From positions 124,001 to 188,000 of the forward strand of contig NZ_LNCI01000002.1 of NCBI RefSeq assembly GCF_001509585.1: 64,000 nucleotides of DNA, read 5' to 3'. The notes beneath the pieces are model-generated. The model ran no database searches and was not told the origin of the DNA. It saw nothing but the letters and a program-made list of their open reading frames with translations. Shown piece by piece: positions 50,916-58,233 of the stretch; the stretch's first letter is position 1; each line of letters begins with the position of its first letter. Source of the stretch: Tropicimonas marinistellae (GTDB lineage Bacteria > Pseudomonadota > Alphaproteobacteria > Rhodobacterales > Rhodobacteraceae). Made by a program: the position numbers and the translations under genes.

Positions 50916-51503
50916 ATGGACACCCTTCCCGACCGTATCGCCGCCTGCCGGATCTGTGCCGATCGCTTCGCCGCGACGGAAACAGCGCACGCACCGCGGC
51001 CGGTGGTGTGGTTCCAGAAAGGTGCGCGCCTCTTGATTGCCGGACAGGCGCCCGGGGCGCGGGTGCACGAGGCAGGCATTCCTTTTCAAGATGCCTCGGG
51101 CGACAGGTTGCGCGACTGGCTGGGGCTGGATTCAGCGGTGTTTTATGACCGTTCGCGTGTGGCGCTCATCCCGATGGCGTTCTGCTTTCCCGGCTATCGC
51201 AAGGGAGCCGACTTGCCACCGCCGCCAGATTGCGCACGCGCCTGGCGTGCCCAGGTGCTCGACCACGCCGGGCCGTTCGACCTCGTGGTTCTGGTGGGCG
51301 GACACGCGCAGAAGTACCACCTTGGCGCCGCGGCAAAAGGCGGCGTGACCCGCACCGTGGCACGATGGCGCGACCATGCGCCGGACGTCTTCCCCTTGCC
51401 CCATCCGTCTTGGCGCAATACGGCGTGGCTGAAGCGAAACCCGTGGTTCGAGACGGATCTGCTGCCGGTATTGCGCGCGCGCATCCAGGAGGTGTTGAGA
51501 TGA
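50916..51503 (+). CDS. uracil-DNA glycosylase family protein
   Basis: This 195-residue protein has the UDG-superfamily fold. GQAPG near residue 44 matches the GEAPG-type first motif and PHPSWRN near 162 the HPS-type second motif. An N-terminal CRIC may be a remnant of the iron-sulfur binding cysteines of family 4/5 enzymes, although a full four-cysteine set is not evident. It overlaps the next gene by 4 nt. Whether it excises uracil or another lesion is not readable from sequence. Confidence 0.82.
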   Translation: MDTLPDRIAACRICADRFAATETAHAPRPVVWFQKGARLLIAGQAPGARVHEAGIPFQDASGDRLRDWLGLDSAVFYDRSRVALIPMAFCFPGYRKGADLPPPPDCARAWRAQVLDHAGPFDLVVLVGGHAQKYHLGAAAKGGVTRTVARWRDHAPDVFPLPHPSWRNTAWLKRNPWFETDLLPVLRARIQEVLR

Positions 51504-52294
51504 ATGACGAGATGACGGCGCTCGACCGGGCGCACCAGGCCATGGCCGAGACACCCGAGAGCGACGCGGCGCGAATGCGTTTCTACGAGCGGCTTGCCGA
51601 TTCGGAGCTGTTCCTGCTGCTGGCGGCGGAATCGGAGGGCGACACGATCGAGCCGCAGGTGTTTCCGCTGGAGGAGGGGCCTGTCGTCCTGGTATTCGAC
51701 CGCGAGCTTCGATTGGCGGACTTTGTTGGCGCGGCGGCGGATTTCGCCGCGCTGTCAGGACGGCAGATCGTGAAGCTGCTCGCGGGCCAGGGGATGGGAC
51801 TGGGCGTCAACCTTGGCGTGCCCGGCTCCGAGACCGTATTGCCGGCCGACGCCGTAGATTGGCTGGCCGGGGCGCTCGACAACGCTCCGACGGAGGCGGA
51901 GGATCGCCCGGAGGAGGTATCGCCGCCGGGTGGCGTTCCGGAGAGCCTGCTGCAGGGTTTCGATGCAAAGTTCGCGACCGCCGCCGGCCTTGCGCGCCTG
52001 GTCTATCTTGCCAGCGTTCGCTACCAGAGCGGCCGGACCGGGCATTTGCTGGCCTTCGTCGAGACGGTCGATGGAGCGCAGACGGCGCTGGCGACTGCCG
52101 CGTCGGAGGCGCTGACCTTCTCGGGGCTGGATGCCGGCGAGATGGATGTTGTCTTCCTCTCCGCGAGCGATCCGCTGGCCGCGCGGCTGGCGAAGGTGGG
52201 CTTGCGGTTCGACCTGCCGGAACCGGAGGTACCCGAGATCACGGAAATCGCGCCCCCGGGCATGGACCCCGACGCCCCGCCGATCCTGCGCTGA
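51500..52294 (+). CDS. SseB-like protein
   Basis: This 264-residue soluble protein contains an SseB N-terminal-type domain (residues about 10-125, with FLLLAAESEGDTIEPQVFPLE and VVLVFDRELRLADF) and a second segment of similar character at about 150-240. ATG 51500 overlaps the UDG stop (ATGA). SseB is linked to sulfurtransferase activity in E. coli, but the role here is unknown. The tail is Pro/Asp-rich. Confidence 0.72.
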   Translation: MNDEMTALDRAHQAMAETPESDAARMRFYERLADSELFLLLAAESEGDTIEPQVFPLEEGPVVLVFDRELRLADFVGAAADFAALSGRQIVKLLAGQGMGLGVNLGVPGSETVLPADAVDWLAGALDNAPTEAEDRPEEVSPPGGVPESLLQGFDAKFATAAGLARLVYLASVRYQSGRTGHLLAFVETVDGAQTALATAASEALTFSGLDAGEMDVVFLSASDPLAARLAKVGLRFDLPEPEVPEITEIAPPGMDPDAPPILR

Positions 52295-52848
52295 GCAAGG
52301 CGCCCTCCTGTACCGACCGGTCTCGCTGCCCGCCGAAGGCGGGCCCCGCCCAACCGCCGCCGAGGCGCGCGGCACGCGCGCGCCGGCGGTGGGCGGGAGA
52401 CCTCGGCCGGGCGGTGTCCCACGGTGAGACAGTGTTCGGATTACGTGATTTCAACGGGTTGCGCGGGCATGTTCAGAGATCGTTAACCATTCCGCGCGAG
52501 AGGACGGGTGTGGCCATGCCACCGTGTATCGGGGGCGGGGACGTCGGATCGGGAGATGCTGCGGTCGCCCAAGACAGCCGGGCGACCTTCGACAAGCGGC
52601 GACACGCGCGCCCAGAGAGGAAATCTCATCGCCGGGCTCCTGTTCCTTGGGTTCAGTTGGACGCGCGGGCAGGTTTCGACCGTTGAGGCCGTGGCGCCAC
52701 TGGCACGGGATCACGGCGGTGCCGCCGTGCCAGCGCCAGCCCCGATCCCGCGCTCGCTGCGGGTGTTCGGTCCAGCCTGCCTGTGAGAAAGGTCTCCTCA
52801 GGACATCGACGCTGCACCGGCACGGGATCACGTCGGAGCCACCGTGAC

Positions 52849-52880
52849 AGCGCCAGACCGCCCGCACGGTCTGGCGCTTT
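52849..52880 (+). terminator. repeat-unit hairpin (first full unit)
   Basis: The 12-bp perfect stem AGCGCCAGACCG/CGGTCTGGCGCT with a 6-nt loop is followed by TT. It is repeated at 53078-53109. It could terminate transcription or shape a repeat-encoded RNA. Confidence 0.55.
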
Positions 52881-53077
52881 GCCGTCCGCACGCGATGCTC
52901 GGATAACTCGCTGATATGGTTCATATAAATCTCCCCGCCCAAGCGTCGGAGCGCCAGCCCGCCGTCTGGCTTTGTCGCGGCTATCCGTTCGGGTGCTCGG
53001 TCCCGTCTGCCAGCGAAAAGAACCGTGGGATTTTGAAGCGTCATCCGGCACGGGGCAAGGGCGCAGCCCGCCGTGCC

Positions 53078-53109
53078 AGCGCCAGACCGCCTGCACGGTC
53101 TGGCGCTTT
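53078..53109 (+). terminator. repeat-unit hairpin (second full unit)
   Basis: Same 12-bp stem as in the first unit, with loop CCTGCA instead of CCCGCA, again followed by TT. Confidence 0.55.
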
Positions 53110-53668
53110 GCTACCCGCGCGCAACGTTCGGATAACGCGCGGATATGGTTCATATAAATCGCCCCGCTCAAGCGTCGGAGCGCCAGCCCGCGGTCTGGCG
53201 CTGTCACGGCTATCGATGTGGATGCTCGGTCCCGTCTCCCGGCGAAATAGTCCACCTGATATTTTGATGCTCCACCGCCGCGGAATCACGGCGGAGCCGC
53301 CGTGCCAGCGCCAGGCCGCCAGCGAGACCGGAGACCTCTTTCCAGGAAATCGAAGCGGCATCCCGCCCGGAACGAGCCGAAGGCGCCGGGCGAGCGCCGG
53401 ACCGGTCCCGCGGTCTGGCGCTTTGGGAGCCGCGCAGAGGGTTCGGATCTGCGCCGGACATGGCCGGGATAAACCGCTTGCCTCGCACGTCGCGGCGCCA
53501 GCCCCCGAACCGGCGCTCGCTGCGCGTGCCCGGTCCTGTCTCCCAGCGAGACCAGCCCCCCATGTCGCAGCACCATCCCCCGGCCGCGCGCCCGGTGCTC
53601 GCAGCACGGTGGAGATTGCCTCGCGTGTGACGAAGACGAATCCGCGTTTCAGGCCGCGTCAGGGCGTC

Positions 53669-54490
53669 TTACTGGCCATAGCGCACAAAGGCGAAGCGGC
53701 GGGCGTCGGATGCCCAGCAGGGGACATTGATCGTGCCCTGTCCGCCGAAGAGCGGGAGCACCTCGCGGGAGTCGCCGCCCTCGGCCGGCATCAGTCGGAG
53801 CGAGACGTCGAGATCGGCCGGGTGGCCCTCGGTTCCCGGCGGATAGGCGAGATAGAGCACGTGTTTCCCATCCGGCGAGGGATGCGGGAACCAGTTCACG
53901 CTGTCGTCGGAGGTCATCCGTTCGAGCCCGGTGCCGTCCGGGCGGACCCGCCACAGATCCACCGCGCCGTCCATTTCGCCGTTGAACCAGATCCAGGCGC
54001 CGTCGGGCGTGTAATCCGGCCCGTCGCAATGGTCGAAATCGAAGGTGATCTGCCGCTCCGGCCCGCCCGCCGCGGGGCAGGTGAAGATCTCCGCCTCGGC
54101 GCCGCGAAACCCGGCATAGGCAAGCTGCGCCCCGTCCGGCGACCAGCCGTGGAAATAGGACGGGACCTCCGCCGTCACCCGCTCCGGCGCGCCGCCGCCG
54201 ATGGGGATGGTGTAGATGCAGCTCTGGCCCGTCTCGGTCTTGTCGCTGATGGCGATGCGTGTGCCGTCGGGCGAGATCCCGTGATCGTTGTTGAGCCCGG
54301 TGGCGAAGCCGGTATCGACGGCCTCCAGCGCCGGATCGGCCAGCGGCACGCGAAAGAGGCGCCCGTTCGAATTGACCAGGAGCGCCGCATCGCCGGGCAT
54401 CCAGTTCGGCGCCTCGATATGGTGCTCGCTCCGAAGCACGATCTCCTGGGTTTCAGCGCCGAGATCGTAGACGACGAGTTCGCTGCGCAT
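53669..54490 (-). CDS. TolB-like beta-propeller protein
   Basis: This 273-residue protein consists of WD40/PD40-type propeller blades, seen as repeated (S)PDGxxxxx segments: [39 protein letters not shown] and [15 protein letters not shown] 54490 gives no signal peptide, unlike periplasmic TolB, so it may be cytoplasmic. It is divergent from aspS. Function is not clear; related propellers are found as accessory or sugar-modifying proteins. Confidence 0.75.
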
Positions 54491-54663
54491 GGCAATTCCT
54501 CCGGGGGGCTGGGGTGGGCAGGTGCCGCGACACTCCTTCCCCCGCGCGGACGGCGTCAAGGCCCGATCGCCGGGACCGCGCGCCTGCCGCCGCCTGCTTG
54601 ACATCTCCTCTGCCAAGGGGTGTATCGGCGCGGACCGAGACATTCCGCCGAAAGGGCTTCGAG

Positions 54664-56544: not shown

Positions 56545-58233
56545 CTACTGCTCCCAGGGCGGCACCTCGTCCAGCCCAAGCGGCGTGCCCGTGGGCTGCG
56601 GCTCGGTGCCGGACGGGCAGAGCCACTGGGCGCGGAGGTCGTCTTCGGTCACGAACCCGAGATCACCTGTCGAGTCGTATGCGATTCCCGCGGCGCGGGC
56701 GACCATCGCATCGAAGCCTTCCGGCGGCACGGCCCAGCAGGTCCAGACATGCAAGCCCGGCGGATCGGCCGGCAGTAGAGTGTGCTCGTTGCCGATGACG
56801 TGATCCAACATCTCTTGCGTCAGGTCTTGACCGCCGCGAAAATCCGCGAACTGGGCCGGGGAACGCACGTTGGCCCAGGCCCAGTTCGCGGATTGAAACC
56901 GCGCCCCGGTGAGGACCGCCCCCTCCATCTGCGCCCCGGTGAGGTCCGCCCCCTCCATCTGCGCCCTGGTGAGGACCGCCCCCTCCATCTGCGCACGGAA
57001 GAGGACCGCCCCCTCCATCTGCGCATCGCGGAGGTCGATCCCCGGCATCGTAGCGTTGCGGAGGTCTGCATCCCGCAGGTCCCGGCCGGAGAGATCGGGC
57101 TTTGCCAGCGCCGCGATGGTGCGGCGGCGCAGGTCTTGCCATTCGGCGTCGAATTCCGCGTCCAGTTGCGTGAAATAGGCCTCGCAGTCGGCTCCTTCCG
57201 GCATCGGGTGCCAGCTACACCAGCGGCGGCGCATCTCTGCCTGAAACTTCGGCGCGCCAAAGCCATTGCCATGGCCGCAGACGTCCGGTTTCAACCCTTG
57301 CCGCGCGCACCATTCCGCCCGATAGCGATGGCGGGACGTATCCGGGTTCACCGCTCCCGGCGGGAGTTCGGCAAAAGTAACTCCTGCAAGATCGGCGCGT
57401 GCGAGGAGACTGATTCCACCGAAGATCGTTACCGAGATCTCGGTTTTAAACAATGTCAGGGCGAGCAAAGTCAGAAATGCCACCCTCCCCCAAATGTCCC
57501 TCTGTCTATGGCCGCGCGCCTCCGCTGCATCGGCTTCCGGGTTTGGGGTATCCCTGCCCGCGCAGGCGAGACCCCGGCGCAGGCGCAGCGCGCTGGTCCA
57601 GCCCGCGAAGATGCAGAACGCGGCGCCGATGAGGATGGTAATGGACATCCATTCCGCATGGGCGGGAAGGGACCAAGACCACGTGATCAACAGAACGGCG
57701 GGACCGGCCAACCAGATGAGAAGGATTGCGGTGAGTGTTGCCAAAGCGTCAAGCGGGCGCCGCTTGGCCGCCCCGTCACCGCGCAAGCGCAGCACCAGAT
57801 CGTTCAGGAGCCAGGGGAGGACCGGGTTTTCCAGCGGTACACCCTTGGGGTCCATCGCGGTCTTGCGGACGAAGGGGGGCGGGGCGGTGAGGGCTTCGGT
57901 GCATTTGCGGATGATCAGGTGCAGGTAGACATAGAGCGCCGCGCCGAGGACGGGGGCGAAGAGGAAGAAGGAGGTGGTGGGGATGGAGACGCCGATGAGC
58001 GGCAGATCCGTCTGCCGGCTGGGAATGAAGAAATCGGCATCCTCCACGCCCAGCACGGTGACCAGCATGAAGGCGAGATAGGCCATGAGGCCGAACCAGT
58101 TGGCGCGGCCGGCGCGGGTGAGATCGTTGATCCGGTTGATCTGCGCGTCCTCGGCGTCGTCCTCGATGAGGACGGGCAGGGGGGTGCCTGGGCGCCGGGC
58201 CTCGGCGCGCCGGAGGGGGACGGGTTTGCGCAT
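56545..58233 (-). CDS. membrane pentapeptide-repeat protein
   Basis: This 562-residue protein has hydrophobic segments near residues 45-63, 80-108, 170-190, 200-220 and 255-280, placing an N-terminal domain in the inner membrane. From about 390 it carries pentapeptide repeats (A(D/N)LxX type): DLRDADLRNATMPGIDLRDA, then repeated AQMEGA(V/D)L units. A C-terminal domain (about 475-562) follows with no recognised family. ATG 58233 is preferred for its basic N-terminus after GGGG-rich DNA; an upstream in-frame stretch is Cys/Arg-rich. The role is unknown. The repeats are encoded by near-identical 30-bp DNA units. Confidence 0.78.
   Translation of the reverse strand: MRKPVPLRRAEARRPGTPLPVLIEDDAEDAQINRINDLTRAGRANWFGLMAYLAFMLVTVLGVEDADFFIPSRQTDLPLIGVSIPTTSFFLFAPVLGAALYVYLHLIIRKCTEALTAPPPFVRKTAMDPKGVPLENPVLPWLLNDLVLRLRGDGAAKRRPLDALATLTAILLIWLAGPAVLLITWSWSLPAHAEWMSITILIGAAFCIFAGWTSALRLRRGLACAGRDTPNPEADAAEARGHRQRDIWGRVAFLTLLALTLFKTEISVTIFGGISLLARADLAGVTFAELPPGAVNPDTSRHRYRAEWCARQGLKPDVCGHGNGFGAPKFQAEMRRRWCSWHPMPEGADCEAYFTQLDAEFDAEWQDLRRRTIAALAKPDLSGRDLRDADLRNATMPGIDLRDAQMEGAVLFRAQMEGAVLTRAQMEGADLTGAQMEGAVLTGARFQSANWAWANVRSPAQFADFRGGQDLTQEMLDHVIGNEHTLLPADPPGLHVWTCWAVPPEGFDAMVARAAGIAYDSTGDLGFVTEDDLRAQWLCPSGTEPQPTGTPLGLDEVPPWEQ
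56901..57050 (-). repeat. 30-bp tandem repeats inside the pentapeptide-repeat gene
   Basis: Units of 30 bp start at 56901, 56931, 56961, 56991 and 57021, sharing GAGGACCGCCCCCTCCATCT with few changes. Each encodes ten residues, i.e. two pentapeptides. The DNA identity points to recent expansion. Confidence 0.9.

Follow-up and report, generated by a model that had tools for sequence, protein, structure and literature searches.

The 64,000-nucleotide stretch of the Tropicimonas marinistellae genome analysed here (contig NZ_LNCI01000002.1, positions 124,001 to 188,000; hereafter the window) carries, in the gap at 52295-53668, an array of three full units (1 to 3) and two truncated copies of a repeat with relatives elsewhere in the Rhodobacteraceae. 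The repeated element is dispersed, intergenic and structured and, as far as sampled, occurs in this family only. It works like a REPIN (REP doublet forming hairpins; REP, repetitive extragenic palindromic sequence) and probably represents an undescribed REPIN-like family whose mobilizer is unknown or lost, its movement being something we infer. It is not filed as a REPIN because it has no general GTAG or CGTC tag, the Y1_Tnp transposase is missing from four copy-rich genomes, and the flanks of 34 loci that do encode Y1_Tnp are without copies. A literature search, with subscription papers and supplements outside its scope, returned no description of this repeat, and a name search of PMC6006769 gave no match.

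The copies share one order of parts, seen in 84 copies gathered with a degenerate hairpin-B pattern (the pattern set) and in 41 copies of the congener G008: hairpin A, hairpin B, a variable spacer, a conserved ATAAAG-type core and palindrome C. Hairpin A is a GC-rich stem enclosing an inner hairpin, while hairpin B is an imperfect palindrome with a 12-bp stem and a 6-nt loop, followed by TTTG. Palindrome C is an inverted relative of B, and its 3′ arm is the reverse complement of the 3′ strand of A together with the 5′ strand of B. The proximal arm of 18-20 nt that these two strands make up has two possible partners: it can pair locally, within hairpins A and B, or reach the 3′ arm of C, which gives one long hairpin. 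The distal arm begins 113-118 nt past the start of B in 82 of the 84 copies. In the G008 copies L201 and L213 the build is mosaic, as additional hairpins (GGGCATTGC- and GGCGATTGC-like) separate hairpin A from hairpin B.

When the array is compared with its own genome by BLAST, 28 high-scoring segment pairs are obtained, 22 of them beyond the array, and matches are also found in five of the nine genomes of the genus. The hairpin-B pattern occurs in 88 stretches of a collection described as 84,980 species; all 80 of the stretches listed come from Rhodobacterales, judged by record title. A covariance model (R1), built from 39 sequences of the pattern set, matches seven of the nine genus genomes, the own genome included, with 0 to 111 matches each (34 in the own genome, 111 in G008 and none in two genomes), where near-palindromic copies can match on both strands and some places are counted twice. 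The 41 G008 copies used here are the best-scoring of the 111, and 21 own-genome copies are those that were placed among the 34, a number that also counts the window units and one or more places matched on both strands. G025 carries the element at 93 or more places. Across the family, R1 matches 158 of 295 Rhodobacteraceae genomes; among 240 sampled alphaproteobacterial genomes only two match, both of them Rhodobacteraceae. The array thus has relatives elsewhere in Rhodobacterales, a point on which a first-pass annotation was right. The element is also found on 11 plasmid records from Salipiger, Sulfitobacter, Paroceanicella and Pacificitalea. A single family copy, searched against 50,697 phage records, had no match (E≤0.01), and a phage origin was rejected on this basis. 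The region is GC-rich and has many short inverted repeats, which would suit a likeness by chance or base composition; such a likeness is refuted by shuffle controls (linker 1 aligns to linker 2 with a score of 24, and the best of 200 shuffles scores 0), by Markov controls for the window (0 in 5) and by the homologs across the family, which together leave it a vanishingly small probability.

Pairing between the two distant arms is constrained. In the 84 copies the distal base tracks the proximal base wherever the 20-nt arm varies, which it does in nine columns; the observed pairing was reached by 0 of 500 shuffles in eight of them and by 1 of 500 in the ninth. In the A2 alignment 91.5% of the cells of the long helix are paired, no slid register approaches this pairing, and 0 of 500 shuffles reach the covariation score; double-sided changes affect 7 of 18 pairs, a count reached by 10 of 500 shuffles. 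The local B stem taken alone has a double change in one of 12 pairs, with most of its letters fixed by the search pattern, and RNAalifold applied to A1 recovered no more than the B stem plus two pairs of C; since hairpin A is poorly aligned in A1, the strands were anchored instead. In the own genome, 24 copies with a single layout use three stem dialects (AGCGCC type in 5, TCGCCGG type in 12 and GCGCCC type in 5, with 2 copies of other kinds), and the match of proximal to distal arm, out of 18 positions, is 15.2 within a copy, 15.3 between copies of the same dialect and 11.1 between dialects. An architecture-only scan, which is insensitive, found 26 candidates in 300 kb of G025, four in G191, two in G016 and none in G156 or G056.

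The alternatives of local and distal pairing can be compared at a mismatch in the stem of hairpin B. Among the 41 G008 copies one position is T.T in 30 and G.T in 7, and 34 of these 37 have a Watson-Crick pair there when the distal arm is the partner. In the own genome, 10 of 18 usable copies carry T.G at another position, where the distal pair is T-A; window units 1 and 2 show no stem mismatch. Over the whole 12 nt, Watson-Crick cells number 431 locally vs 456 distally of 492 in G008, 878 vs 898 of 960 in the pattern set (80 of 84 copies used), 182 vs 195 of 216 in the own genome (18 of 21 used) and 35 vs 31 of 36 in the window. The notion that distal pairing is generally better is not upheld over this length, and a clear difference is confined to the conserved mismatch. 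The minimum-energy fold of the plus strand of unit 2 is one long hairpin (z -3.81 as DNA, -3.5 as RNA), and its minus strand, folded as RNA, prefers separate hairpins (z -3.4).

All 129 placements examined are intergenic (88 plus 41, with 18 loci of the same genome in both sets; genes were called by a simple codon-usage gene finder), and the best match on each of the 11 plasmid records has no listed gene beneath it in a gene table that is incomplete. After removal of the 18 doubly sampled loci, 95 classified copies could be set against 308 background gaps: 44 of the copies and 77 of the background gaps are convergent (p=1e-4), and 6 of the copies and 87 of the background gaps are divergent (p=3e-6). 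The background consists of gaps of at least 150 bp in the same loci, including the element gaps and some G008 stretches twice, and 16 of the 88 copies, which have no called gene on one side, were left unclassified. Each of the four distinct annotated plasmid loci that were opened, from 6 of the 11 records, is convergent, and the window array itself sits in a convergent gap. Relative to tandem genes, 21 copies have the same and 24 the opposite orientation; this lack of preference rejects the idea that neighbouring genes set the orientation. Such placement, convergent enrichment with divergent depletion, is what a structured RNA element at the 3′ end of either convergent gene would show, one that ends or protects mRNAs and is kept by selection at fixed loci; the even tandem orientation, the strong covariation and the start of the match 14 and 17 nt past the stop codon at two annotated plasmid loci agree with it. 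However, congeners range from 0 to 111 matches, orthologous gaps without the element exist, the Sulfitobacter gap has what we read as a separate canonical terminator alongside, hairpin B is not followed by a U tract, and tandem clusters are unexpected for a terminator. We consider this explanation rather unlikely. Likewise, the tandem small RNAs with terminators proposed by the first-pass annotation do not agree with a hairpin B that ends in TTTG rather than a U tract; Rfam 15 has no match at the gathering score in 51800-54200 of the window or at six loci, on which ground a known RNA family was rejected.

Orthologous gaps differ in whether they contain the element. For instance, fdhF and a cache-protein gene are separated by 199 bp, element included, in Salipiger sp. 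CCB-MM3, and by 24 bp on two Alloyangia pacifica plasmids where the element is missing. Between fliG and a DUF1217 gene S. abyssi has 273 bp and CCB-MM3 has 48 bp; the distance is 0 in Marinovum, in which the gene next to fliG bears the annotation FlgF. Absence at such sites could be loss. In both Sulfitobacter gaps compared (those of DSM 110093 and S. faviae) the sequence appears, on our reading, to include a separate canonical terminator, and on Sulfitobacter plasmids such as NZ_CP136690 the gap that holds the element in S. faviae is occupied by parA (L401:829-1467). In Salipiger abyssi (L391:1955-2227) the element lies between two inverted palindromes with GTAGGGTGGG-type sequence, a repeat nested within a repeat pair; these flanking palindromes presumably resemble GTAG-class REPs. 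Dispersed, intergenic copies with presence/absence sites, and inverted arms 113-118 nt apart in 82 of 84 copies, would also suit a miniature inverted-repeat transposable element of a DDE-type insertion sequence, with the covarying arms as its terminal inverted repeats. We regard this as improbable, given that the left arm is subterminal with hairpin A outside it, each arm also belongs to a local palindrome, stem sequences vary between dialects of one genome, the compared gaps have no readable target-site duplication, and no recurrent transposase was seen among the 941 proteins predicted at 146 loci with copies.

For REPINs the expected mobilizer is a REP-associated tyrosine transposase (RAYT). 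Y1/TnpA-REP (Pfam Y1_Tnp) is absent from the four copy-rich genomes G000 (the own genome), G008, G016 and G025. It occurs in 18 of 198 family genomes, 12 of which have R1 matches; set against 158 of 295 overall, this gives no clear link. The flanks of 34 Y1_Tnp loci, up to ~1.5 kb each and 95 kb in total, contain no R1 match (E≤0.1). In each of four stretches flanking the palindromes, GTAG is found in 2-5 of 84 family copies and CGTC in 4-12, near the chance levels of 5% and 10%, respectively; CGTC is above chance 3′ of B in 7 of 21 own-genome copies and 5′ of C in all three window units. A RAYT-driven REPIN was rejected, the tag, host-gene and flank tests having all failed. A partner gene beside the copies was rejected as well, no transposase being recognised among the 14 largest clusters of neighbouring proteins, which to judge by their first 90 residues resemble widespread families, ABC transporters and dehydrogenases among them.

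The element has a suggestive leading-strand polarity. When four genomes are pooled, its plus strand lies on the G-rich (leading) strand in 92 of 137 events (p=7e-5; same-strand neighbours less than 3 kb apart were merged), with 19/27, 13/18 and 40/66 in three of them (p 0.05-0.11) and 20/26 in the fourth (p=0.009). G025 was omitted because its contig order is unknown; its listed copies are on the plus strand in 37 of 45 cases on C1, 10 of 16 on C2, 4 of 16 on C3 and 8 of 16 on C4. We hypothesize that it is, or used to be, a spreading nonautonomous element of the type of REPINs and bacterial interspersed mosaic elements (BIMEs). Its palindromes would fold on an exposed strand, with replication as the likely moment of exposure because of the tendency to leading-strand polarity, and could then be processed enzymatically; the enzyme would not be Y1/TnpA-REP, at least not in the four copy-rich genomes tested. 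Most of the lasting copies would be those in gaps at the 3′ ends of genes, where they are presumably least harmful and may serve as mRNA 3′-end barriers. A more specific proposal, which we hold to be possible but doubtful, is an undescribed class of mobile DNA hairpins of Rhodobacteraceae that would be copied by a single-strand-processing enzyme other than Y1/RAYT, enter at forks, settle in convergent gaps and diversify into stem dialects whose strands change in concert. Entry into one strand at replication forks would produce the leading-strand polarity, and the concerted change would follow from recognition of each dialect by a protein or template.

The array of the window is longer and more mosaic than the two units first described. 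The 229-bp repeat of the first-pass annotation is confirmed by a direct repeat (D1; 52839-53018 and 53068-53247, 180 nt, 86% identity, offset exactly 229) and by a Tandem Repeats Finder call at 52811-53320 (period 229, 2.2 copies, score 676), and the 12-bp-stem hairpins noted in both units were located at 52849-52878 and 53078-53107. On the plus strand the array opens with a truncated copy at 52691-52788 (families D2, D3 and D5), in which hairpin A and the 5′ strand of hairpin B are followed by a jump to linker-like sequence. Full unit 1 (52817-52979; R1 match 52843-52979, 93.5 bits) comprises hairpin A (~52819-52848), hairpin B, an AT-rich spacer and a distal arm (~52962-52979) that is 14/18 complementary, and was duplicated together with linker 1 (52980-53044). 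The best-preserved copy is full unit 2 (53045-53208; R1 match 53072-53208, 117.1 bits), with hairpin A, hairpin B and a distal arm (~53191-53208) that is 17/18 complementary. A second truncated copy, again hairpin A plus the 5′ strand of hairpin B, lies at 53266-53323 (family D2, 83%) and precedes the diverged full unit 3 (53352-53523; R1 match 53387-53523, 81.3 bits; hairpin B at 53393-53422, distal arm 13/18 complementary), whose end is overlapped by a linker-like 3′ tail at 53503-53551 (family D3, 80%). Unit 1 shares 85% identity with unit 2 in the core and 77% in the linker (aligned columns), and unit 3 is 66% identical to unit 1 and 69% to unit 2. An R1 scan of the whole window (E≤0.5) found no place outside the array, and three weak minus-strand matches all fall within it.

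Similar clusters occur elsewhere. Own-genome arrays have periods of 230, 232 and 234 (C1), 231 (C5) and 225 (C13), and a G156 array has a period of 204-206; the own-genome (G000) arrays, at C1:588700-589532, C5:11404-11771 and C13:13027-13842 (L221-L223), have the same architecture in the TCGCCGG dialect. Adjacent units in five arrays are 78-94% identical, with window unit 3 (69%) as the exception, and in most arrays the linkers are copied along with the cores. The tandem clusters arose by local duplication of core and linker, and the window array has decayed since it was formed in this way. The first-pass annotation was right to treat the array as a repeat unit rather than one long protein, but its view that sequence is conserved only at hairpin, AT-rich island and peptide start does not hold, as the linkers are repeated too (77%).

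Several observations weigh against a REPIN-like mobile family as the explanation. The polarity is suggestive only, because it is significant alone in just one of the four genomes, GC skew is weak in three, and the G156 figure uses, out of 149 matches, the 36 chromosome rows that are listed; the strand assigned to a near-palindrome is also uncertain at low score. The arm match within a copy is no better than that between copies of the same dialect, and identities within and between arrays overlap (66-69% for window unit 3, 63-84% between own-genome arrays). In the window, hairpin B is locally perfect (12/12) in units 1 and 2 and the distal arms of units 1 and 3 are degraded, so that this array is not typical. 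Both R1 and the 84-copy set were built from a pattern fixing most of the letters of hairpin B, and its conservation is thus partly imposed. The gaps compared yielded neither a transposition event nor an exact junction, and their junctions are too diverged for a target-site duplication to be read; Sulfitobacter sp. DSM 110093 seems to retain a remnant of hairpin A where the S. faviae copy is whole. Finally, when the 941 proteins predicted at 146 loci were clustered, no recurrent transposase emerged beside the copies.

The first-pass annotation had also drawn attention to minus-strand peptides. A Shine-Dalgarno (SD)-like sequence and an ATG are indeed present on the minus strand at 52924 and 53153, and the encoded peptides have MNHI..LSE and AKRQTV.AVWR in common; the ATGs (52922-52924 and, as its duplicate, 53151-53153) close the minus-strand stretches GGGGAGATTTAT and GGGGCGATTTAT, respectively. 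The start is present in two of the three window units, and the first ATG, which is not conserved in the other own-genome copies examined, is judged not functional. The same stretch contains an ATG in 3 of 21 other own-genome copies, never with an SD-like sequence or an open reading frame (ORF) of at least 40 aa, and in 3 of 41 G008 copies, where again none has an SD-like sequence and three copies have such an ORF. In the 84-copy set an ATG falls within the 12-nt stretch in 35 copies, mostly because the core reads CATAAA, a register that on our reading differs from the CATATAAA of the window; an SD-like sequence accompanies it in 6 of 84, and 21 of 84 have an ORF of at least 40 aa. Because of these last counts, the sequence comparison leaves the peptide disfavoured rather than disproved. 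Short peptide genes on the minus strand would account for the SD-like sequences, ATGs and common residues of units 1 and 2, but the 229-bp duplication explains the likeness of both, and with SD-ATG in 0 of 21 and 0 of 41 other copies we consider such genes very improbable. As the tandem clusters look like local duplications, the shared start is best read as a by-product. Among the functions offered by the first-pass annotation, the nonautonomous mobile element is in line with the probable reading given here, and short peptides are not supported.

The array is flanked by an SseB-like gene upstream (51500-52294, plus strand; Pfam SseB E=5.3e-5, 23.9 bits with a cut-off of 21) and a PD40 (TolB-like) beta-propeller gene downstream (53669-54490, minus strand; Pfam PD40 E=2.4e-10), which converge on it across ~1.4 kb with no credible gene seen. 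In eight congeners the junction of the SseB-like gene and aspS has no R1 match (E≤0.5), the G008 locus being short of ~140 bp and a single weak match (L245) lying outside the junction. The aligned ends of the two genes are ~24-480 bp apart in six of the eight congeners and 1.3-1.6 kb apart in G002 and G008. Because of the short distance in these six, the 2.3-kb block of TolB-like gene and array (52305-54595) is probably a later arrival in the lineage of the window. Outside the repeat units, a stretch of ~119 bp that follows the SseB-like stop (52317-52434) is 90% identical to sequence in the same junction of G002 (L241:892-1009), and downstream of aspS, at 56901-57024, a 30-bp tandem repeat has 4.1 copies with 92% matches.

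If the REPIN-like reading is right, about half of the sampled Rhodobacteraceae genomes (158/295) hold an apparently unannotated, structurally constrained repeat. The element looks like a REPIN, yet it survives in genomes lacking the transposase that is believed to maintain REPINs, and it offers a test case for the upkeep of such repeats, whether by another enzyme, by selection at gene ends or through slow decay. It is also a caution against calling short ORFs in arrays of such repeats.

Compared with the REPINs and BIMEs described in PMC3116915 and PMC8266576, the element has the same two imperfect palindromes, inverted and with a spacer, the same alternative of a long hairpin vs separate hairpins, extragenic copies in several flavours per genome, and tandem clusters that include the flanks; the conserved stem mismatch recalls the E. 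coli REPs covered there. Inverted palindromes with a long hairpin, dispersed extragenic copies and tandem clusters with flanks are all found, whereas a general GTAG/CGTC foot tag, a host TnpA-REP and cognate repeats flanking the transposase are not. In contrast to those REPINs and BIMEs, the element has no general GTAG tag and, in the four copy-rich genomes, no Y1/TnpA-REP gene, and it has an extra hairpin A, whose 3′ strand is in the covarying arm, and a conserved spacer core; its arms are spaced by ~115 nt, compared with 71 and 110 bp in the P. fluorescens REPINs of these sources. The CGTC-tagged REPs, which are common in alphaproteobacteria, have stems of 8-9 bp with A/T first pairs, loops of 4-5 nt, a CGTC-type tag and a CCA-type tail (PMC3733652). 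They are palindromic and intergenic like the element and mostly occur as dimers, whereas its stems are 12 bp long and GC-rich with a 6-nt loop; CGTC precedes palindrome C in all three window units but in only 12 of 84 family copies, which does not place the element among them. By description only (PMC8632094), the element also resembles the HRC-8-4 motif in being structured, intergenic and restricted to Rhodobacterales.
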